From positions 10,606,501 to 10,670,500 of the forward strand of contig NC_134382.1 in NCBI RefSeq assembly GCF_035582795.1: a stretch of 64,000 nt of DNA, given 5' to 3'. The notes beneath the pieces were generated by a model. The model was given only the letters and a program-made list of their open reading frames with translations. It did not search any database and was not told the DNA's origin. This DNA comes from Mycteria americana. Taxonomy: Eukaryota; Chordata; Aves; Ciconiiformes; Ciconiidae. Below are positions 752 to 35,623 of this stretch, piece after piece (position 1 is the stretch's first letter; every line of letters begins with the position of its first letter). The position numbers were made by a program, and so were the translations under genes.

Positions 752-20466
<19,715 letters not shown>

Positions 20467-24533: not shown

Positions 24534-27500
24534 TCACATTATCTCAGTCTTGATTACAGACGAATCTATTGCTTCGTTGCGCAAGTCAACAGCGGATCCG
24601 TTTCTCCAGGACTGTTCAGCAGCTGCAGCGACCTGAATCGTCCAGAGAAACTGCTCTTTGGTTATCACGGGGGGTTCCTTGCCTGCAGGGACAAGGAATG
24701 AGGTGCTTAGGGACATGGTGTAGCGGTGGTCTTGGTAGTGTTAGGTTTACGGTTGGACTCGATGATCTTAAAGGTCTTTTCCAACCTATACGATTCTGTG
24801 ATTCTGTGAATGAAGCACTGGATGAAACCCGTATTATCACCTGCTCTGCCTTTTGGCACATCGCCGCCCACCACGGCATCCCTCCAGCTCCCGGAGCTGG
24901 GGCTTCAGATTTTAAAAGGAAACTTTCAACCCTCTCTTCCTTCCTGTCCTGTGACTAAAATCCTGTATTTTTGTCGATGCAGCCAGCAGAACAGAAATGT
25001 TTTTATTCCTTCTGGGCAGCCAGGACTCTAGATGAGGGTCTCCTTGCTGTTATAAATGGCTGCTTTCTTCACAAATGACAGTAAGGTCCAACGTAATTTT
25101 CCCTCCCAATTTTCATTTCTTCTCTGAACAGTTTCAGATCAACACTCCATCCCTCACCCATCTCACTTGACTTGAAAGTGAGAAAAGAAGCGCACCCCCC
25201 AACGAAGCCAAGTCATTCACTTTCATTTACTGAAACAAGGTTAGTTGTTCGCACTTTCATCGAACTACCAGCTCTTCGGAGGCTGACCACTCCGCGCATG
25301 TTTTTTACCGAGCTGCATGCACTGTTGTGCTCAACATGCATCTGCTGAGAACCCCAGCGCTTGTGAGGGCGGCAGCCCAGCCTGCGAAACCCCGTGTTTA
25401 CTTATGGGGAGCTTGCTCATCACCTGCACAACACTGGCTTAACCTTAACCATGACGAATCGCATTCCTATTTTTCACACCTACTCATTTCTCTTTGGGAT
25501 TTCAGACACAAACACCAAATTGCAATTGTTATTGGAACAGCTTCCAAGGGAAGTTTTCGTAGAAAGCAAATCCAAAGCAACGCTAGCCACTACCGTAAGC
25601 CTCGTCCTACCTTTCAGGGTTCTCAGGAAGTGTCGAAAGAGCTCCCTGTGTGCATCCCTGTAGCGATCAGCTTGGGTATGTGAATATATGGATACCGAGG
25701 TCCCGTGCTCCGTAATCCCCAGGGGATTCTGATTATCTACCCGTAACGTTCCTTGAGAACCGTGAACCTGCAGGGAAGGCAGCAAACAGGAAAGAGAACA
25801 ACATTTTTAAGTTATCCTGCTTTCGACCTTAAACACCTGGCTAGTCTATAGAAGCCCTGGTTTGTACAAGCAAGTAAAAAAGTAACTCCTAATTTTAGAA
25901 GCCACAACCGACATACCCCCTTGTATGGATCAGACACGACAGAAAAGACCAGGTACGTGTTGTTATACAGTGGCTTCCGCTTATGTGATACCTCCACTTT
26001 TTTTTTTTCTTTTTGTAAGCATTTAACAGATATTACTCCCCAAATCCAGCCCACGCATCTGTTATAATTCATGACTTGAGGAATTTACAGACAATTTGCC
26101 TCTGAGTTTACACTTTTCTTCCTCTTTAATATCTTTAACTCATGGCTTGCTATACACCTAAAAACACCTGGAAAGACAACAAATGAACTGTGCGACAACA
26201 TTTCAGCCTCAGGAGAGCTGACACCAATTCCTGCTCTAGTATGACTGCATGCAGCTTATAACCCCAACAGCACACATGTAAACAGAGGCAAAATTCAGGT
26301 AACAAAAGAGAAAGCGGATTGTAAATTAAACACACACAAGCAACCCACTGCTGCCGAGGTAGAGAGGTGTTTTGTGAAACGTGCTTGCAGGCATACGCAC
26401 GGGGCACAACACATACTGCCCCACGTGAACACATACAGGGTAAAACTTGCGCTAGCCTGCGGTGTCGCGACAGACTTGACTTAAAAGTAAGAACGCACCT
26501 CTAGTCTCTGATCACAGCTTTTAGTGCAGTGCTGACTGATGTCCAAAGTAACAATTGCTCCGCTAGGAAATTTCATGCTGACCGCTACAGTGTCTGCATC
26601 CTTCAAGTAGGCCATATCTGAGTGACAAAAAAGGCACTCACTCACACCAGGAACAGCAAACCAGCAAGTACTACGACTACAAAGTGCTCTTCTTCCTTTA
26701 AGAGGCGACACTAGCTCTACAATACCTTCGAACAGGAAGCAATGGCGACAGCAAAGCGCTTTCTGCAACGTACACCAGCTGGTTTACCTTTATCGGCACT
26801 TCTGATGGAGAACAACAAGCTCTGCAGAAACACACAGCCCCTGGGCCTGAACTCCGCCTTCCCAGCCCGTGGCTCTCCCTAAAGAAGGCTTCCACTTCTT
26901 CTTCCAAACACATTTGCCTTTGCAGCTTATTACAACCAAGATCAGGCAACTTCCAGCACGTAGCTAGAACGAGGCAGATGGTACAAAATCCTCCCTGGGG
27001 CATTTTGTTTGTTGCATTTCAGTGCTTTACCATAGATTATAACATTGCATACCACACCTTCTAACAACAGCCAGTCAAGGTTGGCGGCAGCTGCAATTAC
27101 CTAATTAAAACTCTGCATTTCCATTTAAAAAATGGCAGCTTCCAGTTTTATGGTTAGTTTAAATTAGTCTGGTAACCCAGAGTGCGCCCAGCAGTTTGAC
27201 ACAATCCAGAGTAAATTCACATCTTTAACTGTGCTGAGATCAACAGGAAAGTGCCAGAGAAATCAGAGAAAGCAGAGAACTGAAAAAGACTGCATTGACA
27301 TTCTTGTAAGCACAAAGCTTTGCTCATTATTTTCTGCACTCTGGTTTTCAAATGGCAAACTTGATACCCCGCAATTGCCACGCAGAGCAGAGTTCAGCAA
27401 TACCTCTACAGCAACAGCTCCACATCAGCAGGGAATTGACAAAATTCAGAAATCATCGCTAAATACCTGTCTACACAACTTCTTGAGAAACTTGCCTTCT

Positions 27501-30500
27501 ATTTCACTAGACTATTTTTTCAGCTGTTCTATGATGGAACAATTATGTCACGGCTACTGTGCTCTCGTACACTCTTTCCTCCCAATTTTAGTACTGAAGT
27601 CCAGAGGTACACAATAAACTACCAAAAGATTTATTCTTACCTGCACAGAATGCATGCCCCAATGAAAATATTGTATCCGGTGCACGCTCTCCCAACAACA
27701 AACTGATAATATCTATATCGTGCACAGCAGCATTATAAAAAATTCCACCTGGAAGGAGCAAAACTGGGCATTAAGGTCTCCACATTTAAAACCCACAGTC
27801 AACGTACATTTCTGAACTGTACTGAGGTCGATATAAAAAGCCCCCTACATCGAAGAAACTAAAAGCAAACAGAAAAACGCAACAAAAATAAAGATTGGTA
27901 AAGAAAATGCTCCTCAAAAGAAAACTCAGGCATCTTAGGGCTATATAAACATAGGGGACTTTCCACCAGAACACTGGGCAAGATACATTTCCAGTCCTTT
28001 GAGAACGAACTTTTCAGAAGAAAGCTACTCAGTACCTGATGTTTTTAGGAAGCTCAGAGACGCTGCTGGATATATGCTGCTAATCGTTGATATCCGGTGG
28101 ATCCTCCCCAGCGCCTGGCTGTCGTGGACTTTCTTGTACAAGAACTGCAGTGCTGGGTCAAAGCGCCTTCAAAGAGAAACAAGGAATGCGGTACAGCGTT
28201 TGGGAGGGAAGGAGGTCACCTGGGCCGCCGTTACCGCTGCGGTGCACGAGGCCGACTTCATGGCAGACAGCGGCGAGCGTGCGACACGAACCTCACCAGA
28301 CAGACGGGGTTAGACACAGCTTTCTAAGTTCAGACACTTATTATGTATGAATTTTTGCTTCTTGCAAACGAGCCTAATATCTGCACTTGTGAAGACTTAA
28401 ACTAACAACTTTAATGAAGAAATTAAACTATGGGGACTAAAAGCATTTAAAGGTCCAGTAAATTACCTACAGCTCTTCTCAGAGCCCTGCCTACAAGTTT
28501 ATATTCAGTTGAGTGTTGACCAAAACCTCAGCTGAGGTTCAGCCTTATGGCTGGGATCAGACCCGTACATATAGCACTCAAATGGAAAAGGCAAATATAG
28601 GGCAGATATTTTGTGTAATTACGTATTAGTGTATATAAAATACATATATATTTGTCCAAATAAGTTTTATTTGCAACAAAATTAACTATTCTCAGCAGAG
28701 GAGCACAAATGATCAGGTGTGTTTACTAACAACCTACATCCACTCAGCGTATGGTGTTCAATACTGGGCGCAAGTTTAAAGCAGCATTCTTGGCTTTTAG
28801 CAGAGCTCCCTGAGCTCCCGCAAGTTTAACAGAGCGGAAGCGAATTAAAATTAATCTACTTTCCTTCTGTTTCAACTATTTAATCTTAAAGGTCCAGACG
28901 TAAGGTCACAAGTGGAAATATCACTTTATAAAGATTTATTAATCTATTCCCATCAGATAGGCCAGTAATTCTAACAGCAAGCCGAATTTTCATGGCCACG
29001 TAGTTTGCAATCCTCAAGGTTAATAATCCTCAAGCACCATGCCTTCTAAAGGCATAAAAAGAAGGTGCAGGTAAAATGCAGCTCTCTGCAGACCCCAGTG
29101 TCTGGAAATTCAATCTGAGTGGAAAGTTAAGTAGTGGATGGGGTCAATGTCGCCCTAAAGACGGTGCTCTAAAAGGAACTTCAAAAGGTCGCTCGTTCTT
29201 TTGTTGAAGAGTTACTCTAAGCTTTCACTTGTATTTGCTAACACACGTACTTACGTTTCACAGGATCAACATCATCTAAGTAAGTACAGAATATAATTAG
29301 CAAATCAGTGAAAATACAAAGACATTACAAAAAAGGAAGAGTTTTCAGTATTATGAAAATATAATCAAAGAGCAGCCTTTTTGTCTGCTATTTTAAAGAA
29401 CGTAGCTAATTCACTGACCTTCTTCCAATGTTATTTCTAGTTTGCTGCAACAAAGCTGTCAAACAGGGAAAAAAGGAGAGATACCCTCAGATCCAGAAAA
29501 AATACAACACATATGGGCAGAAGTTGCATAAGGAAGTCTAATACATGAGCAAAGTTTAATGCCGTAGGGCATTACTAGACTGAGCAGGGTTGCAGACTAA
29601 ATGCGTTACAACAGAGCAGTGCAAAGCAGGTCTCAGTAGCTGCACGCTTAATAAAATCACAGACCTGCCTGACCTGGTGGTTGTACATGCACAAAAAACC
29701 ATAGGCAAAAAGCGTCCTAAAACCACAGACCAAGAAAGTGCCTCGGAGAATGGCACAGCACTGTCGGAATATTTCCTTCTCTGAAGCTCAACTAGCTGTA
29801 GCATTTGCAAAACCTCGAAAGGACTGCAGAGGTGTGGACCCCAACTGCCTTTGGCCATTCAAAAAAAAAAGTGAAGCTTTCACATCTTGAAAGCTTCATC
29901 ATTTGAGTTCCACCAGCATCCAATCGAGTGAACATTTATTTTAATCTTATGACAGCTAGAGTTTATCTCCATTAAGCATGAAGAATTAATCCAATCCAAT
30001 TAACTCCCAGATGAACAACGTTAACAAGCAGCAGTGAAACTAAGTTTATTTGAGGACAAATTCAGGAAAGCCTGAGGAATCAATGCTACTTTCAGAGACG
30101 TGCTTCTTATCAAGGATAAATCAGAAGAAAAATGCTAGTCTTACTTGTAGAACCCACACACCAATGGCCTTCCACATCTGTCAGCTTCATCGAAACAAGC
30201 TTCTGCCGTCTGCCTGTCAAAACTGGGCAGCCTCTCGCAAAATACACCTTTTCCTGTGCAAAATGGTACAGAACACAGGACTGAAGGCAAGACACGGTCT
30301 GCGCAAAATGTTTTTATCTTGCAATAACATATACATATCATTACATTCTAGAAAGGACGTTTGATGAAACTGCAGCATGGAGTTTTATTTGTTGATGCTA
30401 CTAACTCCCTTTTGGCCTCCAGCTGTGGTTTTGCTAGCTGGTTACAGACCCCAAGAAGCGTGACTGTTTTGACAGCCAGCTCTCCTTTGAGTCCTAGTGG

Positions 30501-32812
30501 TATTTCTAGGACTAGACACTCCGCAGCTGCACTGGGACCAGCACGGTACAAACTCCATTGGTGTTAAGCCATTAACAGCAGTGTCATCAGTGGACTTTCT
30601 CTTTAATTATGCAATTAGATAGTCTGCACAACTCAAGGGACACTGCTGAAACGAGAAAGCATTCACATTTGAAGCGTTTAGCAAACATACAAGGTCTGCC
30701 TCAACGTGTGCTACTAACTACAGATAAAAGCCGAGTTGTCAGTTGTTCCTCTTACCCGCTCGTAAAGCATCTATTACAATCTCAGAGGCTTCTTCAGGTG
30801 GCGAACAAATAATGGCTCCAGAGACTCTGCAGAGGTCAAAAGAAAGATCTTCAGTGAAGATAAGGTTTTTCCTAGAATGAACAACGCTCAAAAGCTCCTT
30901 TCAGTTACAGTTATTTTTACGATAGCCGCCTTAAACTTTGCGAAAGAGTTAAAAAAAAGACATAAAACCCCGTTGCTCCAGAAGAGCAAGCTGTTATAAA
31001 GGGAACTCTGTACCTGCTTGCAAGGATGAAATACGGGATGACTTATAAAGGTTAAAATTACAAGTGGCACAATGAAATTGCATTGCCCTTCCTGCATCTT
31101 AAAGGAGAAAGTCTTTTAAAGGTGTCCTTTGAAAATGAGTTAAATCCTGCTAGTTAACACATACAGTGAAATCAAAAGTATGCGGTAGAGCTGCTGAACA
31201 AGTGACTGGTACATCTTAGCTTATTACCATTCTTTAGTTTCTAATATCAAACCCATCTTTCTTGAAAAGCTCTGCCTTTCACTTTTGCAATGGTATTTAA
31301 AATACCAATTTGAGAACTGACTGTAACCACATCACTCGATGGTACTTGTTCAGTTCAGCTGTAAAGCACAACGCCACAATCTTTCCTATTTACAGCGATC
31401 CTCGCTTATCTCAAACAGTTTCAAAAGAGCCACCAAAGTCAGCCAGCTGCTTCGAGGCAGAAAAACTGGTAGGCAGCAGGAACGTGTGTCTATTGCTCTA
31501 TGGGAATGGAGGAAAACAAGGGGTTTTTATATTTCTTAACAAAACCGCCTGCAACTGAACTCTTCCGAGTTTCCATTGATTCTGGGCATGTGAGCCAAGC
31601 TAAGCTTCTCAGGGACTTCTGAAGCCTCTATGGGCAGATGACATGCTATGTAAGCCGTGGCCTGTAACAGCCCCTCGGTCTCGCTCCATTCCCATACGTG
31701 GGGCCAGACAAGCACAGTCTGGCTCCACTACGGCGCAGCGGCATTTTCCAGAGGGGGAAGCAAGCCTTGCGCGGAGACGCTCGCCCCAAGCCTCGCGGCA
31801 GGGAAGAAGCACGCACGGGAGTTAGCGGCGGACAGTACCGCTGATCGTTGAGCGCGACATCGGCGTCCTGCTGCCGCAGCACCCTGGTGCCGGCCAGGAA
31901 CTCGGCACCGAAGGCGCGCTCCACCTCCTCCAGCTGATCCTCCACAACGTAAAGCAAGCAGCAGCCGTTTTCCTCCATCAGGCTTTGAAACAAGGCTTTA
32001 TTAACGAGCCCTACGCCGAAGAGGGCGAGGCCAACGCCGCTGCCGGCGCTGCCGTGCCGTCCGGCGGGCGCCGGGCTGTCGGAGGCCTCGGGCGCAGCCC
32101 CCCTTTGGCCAGGCTGCTTTGAGGGGGCAGGTGCGATCCTCATGTGGAAGGCGGCAAGCGCCGAGGGGTGGCTGGCGGAGGTGGAAGGCGTCGGGTCTTC
32201 CCTGGGGGCGGCCCCACTGGCGGGGGAGCTGGCGGCGACGGGGCGGTGGGGAGCCAGCGGCTTGGGGTAGGAGGGCGGCGAGGGGACCGTGCCGTAGCTG
32301 GCGCTGGTGCCGGCGCTGGCGGCGAGGATGAAGGACGGCTGGGAGAGCAGGGAGGGCGCGTCGAGCTGCAGGGGCAGGCCGGTGCCGACGTCCGGACCTG
32401 CGGAGCTGGGCGAGACAGAAGAGGGCTTGGGGTGAGGCTCCGCTCCCCCTCGCCGAGCGAGGGGCAGAGGCCCCGCGCCTTCAGCCCGCTCCCCGCAACC
32501 CCCCCGCTGCCCAGCGGCCCCGGCCGGCGCAGGGAGAAGCCGGGCCGGCCCGGGCGCGGGCACTCACAGGAGCAGCGGGGCGCGCAGGCCGTGCTGGCGG
32601 AGGAGGCGGCGGTTGCGGTAGTGGCGGCCGGAGGAGAGGTGCTCGAGGATGCGGTCGCGGCGCACCCGCATGGGCAGCTGGCAGGAGGTGCAGTACAGCG
32701 TCTCCACCACCGCCGCCTCCCCGGCAGCGCCGCGCTCCAGGAGGTGCCGCTTCACCGCCAGCTCCGAGAACTCGGCCGCGTAGTCGTGCAGCGTCTTCTT
32801 CTTCCGCCCCAT
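24534..32812 (-). CDS. CGGBP1-like zinc finger / Gfo-Idh-MocA oxidoreductase fusion ('YrbE-like')
   Basis: Nine coding exons on the minus strand: 32812-32568, 32405-31839, 30826-30756, 30253-30145, 28166-28036, 27748-27641, 26617-26499, 25767-25611, 24682-24534. The sum is 1656 nt (551 residues plus TGA), with GT-AG sites and matching phase at each junction. Residues 35-70 form a C2H2 finger like that of CGGBP1 (C41, C44, H58, H64) after a basic start. Residues 83-205 are a Ser/Pro/Ala-rich linker. Residues 206-551 follow the Gfo/Idh/MocA fold: nucleotide-binding GVGLVN at 212-217, SPPEE at 279-283, KRFDP at 331-335, SGGIFYNAAVHDID at 374-387, GSQGTLRV at 453-460. The family triad Lys-Asp-His reads Arg302, Asn380, His384, so catalysis is doubtful. 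I recall 'uncharacterized oxidoreductase YrbE-like' models in other vertebrates; no gene symbol is recognised. It shares a CpG promoter with CCDC27. Confidence 0.88.
24691..24808 (+). mobile_element. CR1 LINE 3' end, relatively young
   Basis: Contains GGTTGGACTCGATGATCTTA, AAGGTCTTTTCCAACCTA and the terminal direct repeat ATTCTGTGATTCTGTG, all diagnostic of avian CR1. Much closer to consensus than the other CR1 pieces here. It is antisense to the host gene and begins within about 8-20 bp of the splice acceptor of that gene's last coding exon (acceptor AG at 24684-24683). Confidence 0.92.
25612..30755 (-). other. Introns between exons 3 and 8 of the oxidoreductase gene
   Basis: Between the coding exons listed for the gene, the intron sequence is AT-rich and I see no further exon. 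The longest piece, 28167-30144, holds a palindromic AT-rich patch near 28620-28660 and nothing else recognisable. Confidence 0.6.
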
Positions 32813-33096
32813 GGCGGCGGCGCGGCCCGGCCCGGCCCGGCCGCCCCGGAAGCGGAAGGCGCGGCCCCGCCGCCGTTGCCTGGCAGCCGGGCGCGGCGGG
32901 AGGGCGGAGGCTGCGGGCCCTGCCCCGAGCGAGCCCCCGCTCCCGCAGCCGGCGCCTGACGACGCCGGGAGAGGGGACGAGTCGCCTTGCCAGGCACCAG
33001 GGCGGACCCCGCCACCTCGGACTTCAGCCCCGGTTCCGAGCCCCCCCCCGCCCCCCTCTCCGGGCAGGCGTCCTCGGCCCTCCCTGCAGCGCGGAG
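32813..33096. promoter_or_regulatory. Bidirectional CpG-island promoter
   Basis: Only 284 bp separate the ATG of the minus-strand oxidoreductase gene (32812-32810) from the assigned ATG of CCDC27 (33097-33099). The interval and both flanks (about 32100-33280) are very GC-rich with dense CpG and no TATA box, as in head-to-head vertebrate promoters. Confidence 0.65.
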
Positions 33097-35623
33097 ATGG
33101 AAGGAGCGAGCCCTGCCAAGGCAGCCCCCGAGGAAGCCGTCGGCCACGCCGACGCCCGCGGGGCCCTGCAGCAGGAGCAGGCGCGGGTGGCAAAGCTCAC
33201 CGAGCTCCAGAACGGCGAGCGAGAGCTCCGCGAGGAACTGCAGAAAGCGAAGGATGACTACGGCATGGCCACAGGTACCGGGGGAAGGCGTCCAGAAAGC
33301 ACAGTTCTCCTAGCTACCAGGTTAATCTTCTTGCGATGCCACTTCTTTTACCTAGAAAAAATCCTAGGTTACGTTCGCGTGAGCACAAACCCTCCTGCAT
33401 TCGATTGTTGGTTACAGTGGGGCGGAACCGCCGCTTACTTCGAAACACCTTTCTCTCCCTGCTTAGAAGCGAAGCGCATGAGGGAACCCTGCAGAGGAAG
33501 CCCTGAGCAGTATTCTGGGGCACCCAGCAGCGTTGCAGCACTCTGGCAAAGCTGTGCTCGTGTTACCAACTCTGTTGGTCCTCAGAGTAGCTCCTACCTC
33601 ACGCAATGACATTAGTTAAGTTTAATACATATCCCAGCAAAGTGCTATGAAATGCATTATGAACCAGTGTCACCGTGGCTGAAGCGTTAACTTCGCCCAC
33701 GGTCTATACTCAGACGGTTACAACAGCTCTGCTTACGCTTACCTGACAAAGATGCCATGAAGCTTTTGGCGGGGATTCGGTTTGCTTACAGTAGTACGCC
33801 AACCTTACAGGTGCCATCTCTTCCTTGCAAAGACAACTGGAGATCCAAGAATCCCAGCTTCGGAGAATCAAATCTGAAAAGGAAATGCTCCAAAAGAAGC
33901 TCAGAGAGCGAGAAAATCAGCTACAAGCCATGTCTACCAAGGTACCCCCGAGAGCGTGCTGGGCATTGTTAGGAGAGCTGGCAGCAGGGAATTTGGGCTT
34001 TATGCAACAGTTCCTTTCCTCATAGACAGGAGGTGCACCTGTGAACTGTAAAACTAAAGTGTAACATATTTTCTCTTAAGTTTTGTAGCCTGAGAGAAGA
34101 ACAGAAACCCGAAGAAATGATGGTGACAATAGAGAAGGAGAACTGCAGTCTTCGACAGGTAAATTTGGTGCAAAGCCGCTACAGAAAATTCTTGTATTAG
34201 CTGCTTAGTTGTGCTTGTTTTAGGCTTGGGGGAGTTTGCCACATTAAAAAAACCTACTCAATCCAGTAATTTTAAAGAAAACACCAAGTAATAACAGTTA
34301 CCAGTACTGGCAAGGTTGTTAGTCTGTAGACTCTGCCCAGGAAATACAAGAAGCTTTTGGACCAGATACTGGGAAGATGCAGCCAAGCCTGCTCACTTTT
34401 TTCCTCACAATAATGGCTTAATTTATGTATCTCCTCAGGTTGTTACAGAACAAGAATCCAAACTGGCTGAGCAGAACAAGCTGATCAGTGAGTTACAGGG
34501 GACAGTCAGCCAGCTACAGGCAGAGGTTCTGACCAGCCGGTACCACATCCACAAGCAGCAACGGGCCCAAGAGGCGATCCAGAGCCAAGCTGAGACACTG
34601 CAGCACAGGGAGCTGCAAACTAGAGTGGCACTTGAATGCATCACCAGCAGGGTAAGTGTAGCCTCCTACCTCCCTCTTGGGAGACACTTCAACCATTTCA
34701 AGCAGAGAATCTGAAAGCTTAGAGACATTCTTGGGCAGAACCACCGTGGGAGATGCACCAGGACACTGCAGTCCTTTGCTCTTGGGGCCCGGCTTCCCTT
34801 TGCAGCCACAGGGCCAGAGGAGCAGGAAACAGTCCATTTGCTTCCCGGCTTTTTAGCACGCAGCTCTTATGTCACTTACAAAACAAACAGGCCTGAAATA
34901 CCAGAAGCCCTTGAGAAACTCGAGTTCAGAACAGTTACATCACCAGATTTCTAATCTCCTTCCAGGCTCAAAGTAACAGGTTATCACCTTAAAGCCATTT
35001 CCTGCAGGCATATGTGCCTGGTAGCAAGCACAGAGCCTGATACCTGGGTAAGGGACTCGGTCCACCCAGAAACACATCATTATCACAGTACTTGCAGTGA
35101 AGCCCAGTCAAACTGCCCGTCATTTCACATAAACAGACTTTCCATTTCATCATTCACTAGTACTTTGTCCAATCTGACAGCGTAGTCTCTGTAAATCCAT
35201 GCAAATGCCAAAGAATTGTGTATAAAGACTAAACACACCTACTTTCCTCTTTTATCAAAAGTTTGAAAGATACCGAAGCAAAATAATTCAGGCCACGTTC
35301 AGTACGGCAGGCAGCAAGCCTCCCCAGGCAGAGGTCACGGATGAGGAGGTGCTGGAGGCAATGCAGGTATGTGGCTCTTTCGAACTCTGCTTCTAGCAGC
35401 CGGCAAGGGACTGATAACAGAACACTTTGCAGTACTGCTCTCCACCTAATGCTTTCCCACCTCTTTACACATCCCTAATTTTCAGAAAATAATTAACGAA
35501 CGGATGGAGTTCTATCAGATGCTGAAACAGAAAGGCGTCAAGGTCCCATCGCTCTACAGCATCGACACGTCTACTTCATCACCTACCAGTGCTAAGGGAA
35601 GGAGAAAGAGTCCTACAAGGTAG
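33097..35623 (+). CDS. CCDC27: CCDC27, coiled-coil domain-containing protein 27
   Basis: Six exons: 33097-33274, 33811-33941, 34081-34158, 34439-34651, 35262-35366, 35486-35623. Total 843 nt, in frame, 280 residues plus TAG. Nearly the whole product is predicted coiled coil: runs of Leu, Glu, Gln and Lys such as QLEIQESQLRRIKSEKEML and EQESKLAEQNKLISEL, with a Ser/Thr/basic tail (STSSPTSAKGRRKS). The identity rests on this coiled-coil motif and on position between TP73 and LRRC47, as in human. The human protein is much longer (about 650 residues), so either the bird gene is short or upstream exons are missed; the sequence CCCTGCAG just before the ATG could be an acceptor. The stop TAG directly overlaps a possible donor (AGgtag), so an extra 3' exon is not excluded. 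Function is not established. Confidence 0.8.

Follow-up and report, generated by a model that had tools for sequence, protein, structure and literature searches.

Gene structure and coding signature

The window analysed here is a 64,000-nucleotide stretch of the Mycteria americana genome (contig NC_134382.1, positions 10,606,501 to 10,670,500). On its minus strand, from position 32812 to 24534, lies a gene that joins a zinc finger, through a linker, to a domain of the inositol-dehydrogenase type. Its coding sequence of 1656 nt (551 residues and a TGA stop codon) runs in a single frame through nine exons, with neither an internal stop codon nor a frameshift. All eight introns are of the GT-AG type with compatible phases, and 16 of 16 splice ends are canonical. 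The reconstructed exon chain bears out the continuous nine-exon, 551-residue frame that an earlier, sequence-only reading of the window had proposed, including its coordinates and the junction between 32568 and 32405.

Exon 1 (32568–32812), identified by a Kozak-like ATG and by its GC content by codon position, encodes residues 1–82, with the last codon split. It opens with the basic sequence MGRKKK and contains the zinc finger, whose core, C41-x2-C44-x13-H58-x5-H64, lies at 32621–32692; these are the four finger residues named by the sequence-only reading, at the same positions. Exon 2 (31839–32405) encodes the linker and the first part of the Rossmann fold. The linker, delimited by its composition rich in Ala, Pro and Ser, covers residues 83–205 (32036–32404). 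The domain continues through exon 3 (30756–30826), exon 4 (30145–30253), exon 5 (28036–28166), exon 6 (27641–27748), exon 7 (26499–26617), exon 8 (25611–25767) and exon 9 (24534–24682), which contains the TGA stop codon and the C-terminal residues IKTEIM. Exons 2 to 9 were placed by the splice model. Just upstream of exon 9, positions 24750–24810 of intron 8 hold what is probably the end of a CR1-like repeat of avian type.

Nothing corresponding to exon 1 exists in the bacterial relatives of the protein, and independent evidence for it was therefore required. Its GC content at the three codon positions is 0.741/0.457/0.988, and the excess at the third position (GC3) was reached in none of 5000 base shuffles. 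The same holds for residues 83–170 of the linker (0.670/0.693/0.920; 0/5000). Codon-position GC is flat in the 245 nt 5' of the ATG (0.841/0.829/0.840). In intron 1, the frame tested is likewise free of a GC3 excess (0.741/0.870/0.778). The context of the exon 1 ATG, GCCGCCATGG, is strong, and that of Met171 (CACATGA), the earliest in-frame Met of exon 2, is poor. Together, the signature of exon 1 and residues 83–170 and the two start contexts favour a single protein-coding gene that would be translated from exon 1 through the linker.

The finger and the dehydrogenase-type domain

The best match of the finger is CGGBP1 of the same genome, which we located through the human sequence (89% identity) and read out as locus L090. 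Exon 1 and this protein are identical at 13 of 40 aligned residues (29.3 bits; E 8e-6 for a search space of 617 letters). The Smith-Waterman score of 63 was not reached by any of 5000 full shuffles (maximum 53), and it also lies beyond 5000 shuffles in which Cys and His were held fixed (maximum 61). The two proteins share a C-x2-C-x13/14-H-x5-H finger with an identical CTSC and a Leu two positions before the first Cys, which is Leu39 in the present protein; this Leu has been linked to sequence-specific binding (PMC8097297). The finger region (residues 36–82) has a net charge of +7. By its pattern and by its likeness to the CGGBP1 of the same genome, it is a BED-like Cys-Cys-His-His finger of the kind seen in the CGGBP family.

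Members of the CGGBP family, among them CGGBP1 and other hAT-derived proteins that bind CGG, combine by definition a finger with a Hermes-type domain (PMC8097297). Here, in contrast, the finger is joined to an oxidoreductase domain, and no counterpart of the Hermes-type half that follows the finger in CGGBP proteins was found: the alignment of exon 1 with CGGBP1 consists of the finger only, residues 83–551 lying outside that alignment, and Pfam returned no Hermes match for the whole 551-residue protein, nor for CGGBP1 itself. Pfam zf-BED likewise matched neither the finger nor CGGBP1, and a PDB search with the finger returned a designed protein only (E 0.024). The claim of a CGGBP1-like finger stands insofar as the alignment beats the shuffles, but it extends over only 40 residues and half of the parts that define CGGBP1. 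We regard the likeness as real but short.

Elsewhere in the genome, a second CGGBP1-like stretch (L091, G000:C8:38832152-38832367, plus strand) shows 37% identity over CGGBP1 residues 16–88 (E 1.1e-4). The finger Cys and His residues are visible in it, and its finger segment has no Pfam match.

Residues 206–551 are nearest to inositol 2-dehydrogenase (NCBIfam TIGR04380, E 2.6e-52), although the score of 177.8 bits stays below the equivalog cut-off of 355 bits. Three Pfam families exceed their cut-offs, namely PF01408 (28.5 versus 24 bits), PF02894 (61.4 versus 22.9) and PF22725 (63.6 versus 27), giving the Rossmann and C-terminal alpha/beta domains of a Gfo/Idh/MocA fold. The top PDB matches, 3ezy (E 1.1e-36), 4hkt and 3euw, cover about 325 residues of exons 2–9; 4hkt is an inositol 2-dehydrogenase and 3euw a myo-inositol dehydrogenase. 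Matches in all three databases thus uphold the assignment to an inositol-dehydrogenase-like Gfo/Idh/MocA domain, and with the frame and the coding signature they support the central claim of the sequence-only reading, that a zinc finger is fused to a fold of this type. The name YrbE-like is used for animal relatives. One moth gene has been given that name (PMC11766081). The present gene may already carry an annotation under a generic name.

In IolG of Bacillus subtilis, the catalytic triad consists of Lys97, Asp172 and His176, and a GxGxxG motif has been defined for inositol dehydrogenases (PMC9603128). We compared the corresponding positions with the best 80 of at least 585 confirmed bacterial loci, many of them from Alphaproteobacteria. 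The catalytic Lys, present in 80 of 80 relatives, is replaced by Arg302 (30231–30233), and the Pro that follows it in all 80 by Leu303, so that Glu-Lys-Pro reads Glu-Arg-Leu. At the catalytic Asp site, which is Asp in 79 relatives and Glu in one (one of the two scan patterns spans this site and permits Asp or Asn), the protein has Asn380 (27732–27734). The catalytic His, again found in 80/80, is retained as His384 (27720–27722) and is the sole triad residue kept. The glycine-rich motif reads GVGLVN (residues 212–217, 32000–32017), where the sequence-only reading had placed it, and its last Gly, found in every one of the 80, has become Asn217. In the 75 of 80 relatives in which the search expression found both motifs, Lys and Asp are 77 positions apart and Asp and His 4; the distances here are 78 and 4.

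The two triad changes fall on nearly fixed residues amid wide divergence. Of 33 positions invariant among the 80 relatives, 21 are kept, G212, G214, D238, E301, H384, D385 and D387 among them, and 12 are changed; the core of the domain therefore looks constrained. In our alignment Asp238 coincides with an Asp of inositol dehydrogenases that has been tied to a preference for NAD+ (PMC9603128). Compared with IolG, residues 206–551 match over the whole length and keep the triad His, the Asp for NAD+ preference and the core glycines, but they score below the equivalog cut-off, lack the catalytic Lys, the catalytic Asp and the last Gly of GxGxxG, and carry a finger and linker added at the N-terminus. 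As the triad Lys and Asp are replaced where they are near-fixed elsewhere, the protein probably does not function as an inositol dehydrogenase. That activity is likely to have been lost, and the domain is most likely a pseudo-dehydrogenase. Binding of a dinucleotide may persist, the GxG and Asp238 being kept, or it may not.

A genome-wide search for the Gfo family gave five stretches, three of them above the cut-off (on C2, C8 and C78); an exon of the present gene came up below it. We take the stretches on C2 and C8 (L085 and L086) to be GFOD1/GFOD2-like and the one on C78 to be dihydrodiol-dehydrogenase-like. The C78 stretch keeps Glu-Lys-Pro, and L085 (G000:C2) has Asp-Arg-Thr at this site, with the catalytic Lys changed to Arg. 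A Gfo protein lacking the Lys is hence not unique in this genome. L085 and L086 resemble the present protein in having Gfo/Idh/MocA-type domains that depart from the catalytic motifs, but they represent another branch, and no finger was found within the stretches seen.

Neighbouring genes and the TP73 interval

TP73 lies upstream in the window, on the plus strand. An exon at 14851 (+) encodes a DNA-binding domain of the p53 family, without separating p63 (4.1e-18) from p73 (1.6e-17), and a SAM exon at 18383 (+) matches p73 (4.2e-17) much better than p63 (2.7e-8). The exon ending near 20466 is presumably the final coding exon of TP73. The fusion gene is arranged tail-to-tail with TP73, with about 4.1 kb between the stop codons (24534–24540 and 20466). 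On its other side, a coiled-coil-like gene starts near 33.1 kb on the plus strand, head to head with the fusion gene. No Pfam match above the cut-off was found for this gene, which is presumably CCDC27. Positions 32812–33170, which separate the ATG from the coiled-coil-like gene's first coding exon, are very GC-rich, and the segment looks like a shared bidirectional promoter. Farther along, at 42–43.4 kb on the minus strand, lies a leucine-rich-repeat gene, presumably LRRC47-like.

The sequence-only reading knew of no human gene in the TP73-CCDC27 interval. The interval is not empty, however: it holds the long non-coding RNA (lncRNA) TP73-AS1, reported to be ubiquitously expressed and described as lying on the strand opposite TP73 and tail-to-tail with it (PMC12028249). 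The fusion gene occupies the reported place and strand of this human lncRNA. About 55 conserved human lncRNAs have been estimated to derive from coding genes that were lost, and their broader expression has been noted (PMC5577775). The main text of that study names neither TP73-AS1 nor KIAA0495 nor an oxidoreductase.

A candidate regulator and its alternatives

We propose that the 551-residue protein acts as a nucleic-acid-bound regulator that responds to a ligand or partner, a reading to which we give a probability of about 45%. In the nucleus, the finger and its basic flanks would attach the protein to nucleic acid, and the linker, rich in Ala, Pro and Ser, would be flexible. The dead dehydrogenase, which probably forms oligomers as its relatives do, would serve as a module binding a ligand (a dinucleotide or a small polyol) or a partner, and this binding would alter the effect of the bound protein on transcription in the manner of Gal80, with the DNA-binding part built in. 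Taken separately, the predicted absence of catalysis is well supported, a nuclear location and DNA binding moderately, and ligand sensing with a transcriptional effect weakly. A role in binding nucleic acid is rather probable, and gating by a ligand is a tentative suggestion, the balance tilting somewhat against it. The basic start, the finger flanks, the linker and a single sumoylation-type motif near the C-terminus (Ile-Lys547-Thr-Glu) fit a regulator and prove nothing.

Yeast Gal80 itself is not known to have a DNA-binding domain. Its Rossmann fold binds NAD(P) and its cleft binds an activation domain (PMC8801411). The analogy with Gal80 drawn by the sequence-only reading gains from the replacement of two of the three catalytic residues, which makes it more plausible without proving it. 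The two proteins are alike as Gfo/Idh/MocA-type proteins, Gal80 being one used as a regulator, but no sequence link between them was found: no chain bears the name Gal80 among the 39 PDB sequences of one search or the 60 matches listed, of 111, in another.

Several observations weaken the gene model or the proposed regulator. Donor 2 (GCG|GTACTG) scores 1.65, compared with 4.85–11.34 for the remaining seven donors, on an approximate donor matrix. Residues 171–205 of the linker show no GC3 excess, 2354 of 5000 shuffles reaching the observed value. Two further sites in the window, read in all six frames, show the bare Cys-Cys-His-His spacing, and the finger matches no Pfam family above the cut-off, AKAP95 coming closest (E 0.016 and 0.0088). 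A search of the whole genome with exon 1, up to an E of 5, gave no hit other than exon 1, and CGGBP1 was not recovered; the likeness is too weak at that search size. An AlphaFold model of exon 1 alone was discarded as unusable (mean pLDDT 50.0). In the domain, only 45 of 90 positions conserved in at least 90% of the bacterial relatives are kept (bacterial minimum 69, median 89), and the losses are therefore not limited to catalytic positions. The changes G217N, H220L and H284A affect what we take to be the cofactor site, and NAD binding may accordingly be lost. Arg and Asn at the triad sites could support a different chemistry, and in this one genome the substitutions could be lineage-specific or mark early decay.

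Other explanations are conceivable. The protein could be a dehydrogenase or reductase that is still active but whose chemistry has changed, the finger only localising it or tethering it to a partner or RNA. The intact fold of about 325 residues would suit such an enzyme, as would His384, Asp238 at the end of strand 2 and the GxG, but we consider it unlikely given Arg and Asn in place of the triad Lys and Asp and the loss of both the Pro after Lys and the last Gly of GxGxxG. A bacterial paralogue, OxiC, which lacks the Asp and a complete GxGxxG, is reported to be without inositol dehydrogenase activity (PMC9603128). Marginally less likely still is a finger of the U1-like or AKAP95-like class that binds RNA or protein instead of DNA, with the dead oxidoreductase as a ligand-free scaffold. 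AKAP95 is the sole Pfam match of the finger, and the GFOD-like paralogues of the same genome are also off the catalytic motifs. The CGGBP1 of this genome, however, also has AKAP95 as the best Pfam match of its finger, below the cut-off (E 0.00023 for the whole protein, 0.0022 for its finger), and human CGGBP1 binds DNA sequence-specifically on arrays (PMC8097297), so that the AKAP95 match is no argument against DNA.

It is also conceivable, if improbable, that the fusion is an annotation artefact and that the locus yields two products, a short finger peptide from unspliced exon 1 and an oxidoreductase without the finger, begun at Met171 or in a different 5' exon. The unspliced frame does meet a TGA directly beyond 32568, and Met171 precedes the whole domain, with no GC3 excess between it and residue 205. 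Nevertheless, the fused frame has a strong coding signature over residues 83–170, upstream of Met171, the context of Met171 is poor, and the exon 1 donor is good with compatible phases. Early decay of the gene in this lineage, which would make the catalytic changes incidental, is very improbable: it would account for the alteration of half of the strongly conserved positions, but all nine exons are open with every splice end canonical, 21 of the 33 invariant positions are kept, and exon 1 and the linker retain their GC3 bias.

Both halves of the protein are of known kinds. Their joining together with the loss of catalysis is new as far as the literature searched shows; among the matches listed, no fusion of a finger and a dehydrogenase was found in the literature. 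More speculatively, and with small probability, the gene could represent a metabolite-gated transcription factor of sauropsids or of vertebrates more widely, made of a finger of the domesticated-transposon type and a dead inositol dehydrogenase and perhaps acting near TP73, whose coding role was lost in the human lineage with its promoter and transcript persisting as TP73-AS1. If this were true, Gal4 and Gal80 would be united in one chain. The locus beside TP73 raises a concrete question, namely whether TP73-AS1, a lncRNA studied in cancer, is what is left of a gene that once encoded a protein.

Enzymes that have turned into regulators are known one by one. If the proposed regulator is real, a single chain with a finger of the DNA-binding type and a dead dehydrogenase would link the level of a metabolite directly to gene control, a link open to tests with purified protein.

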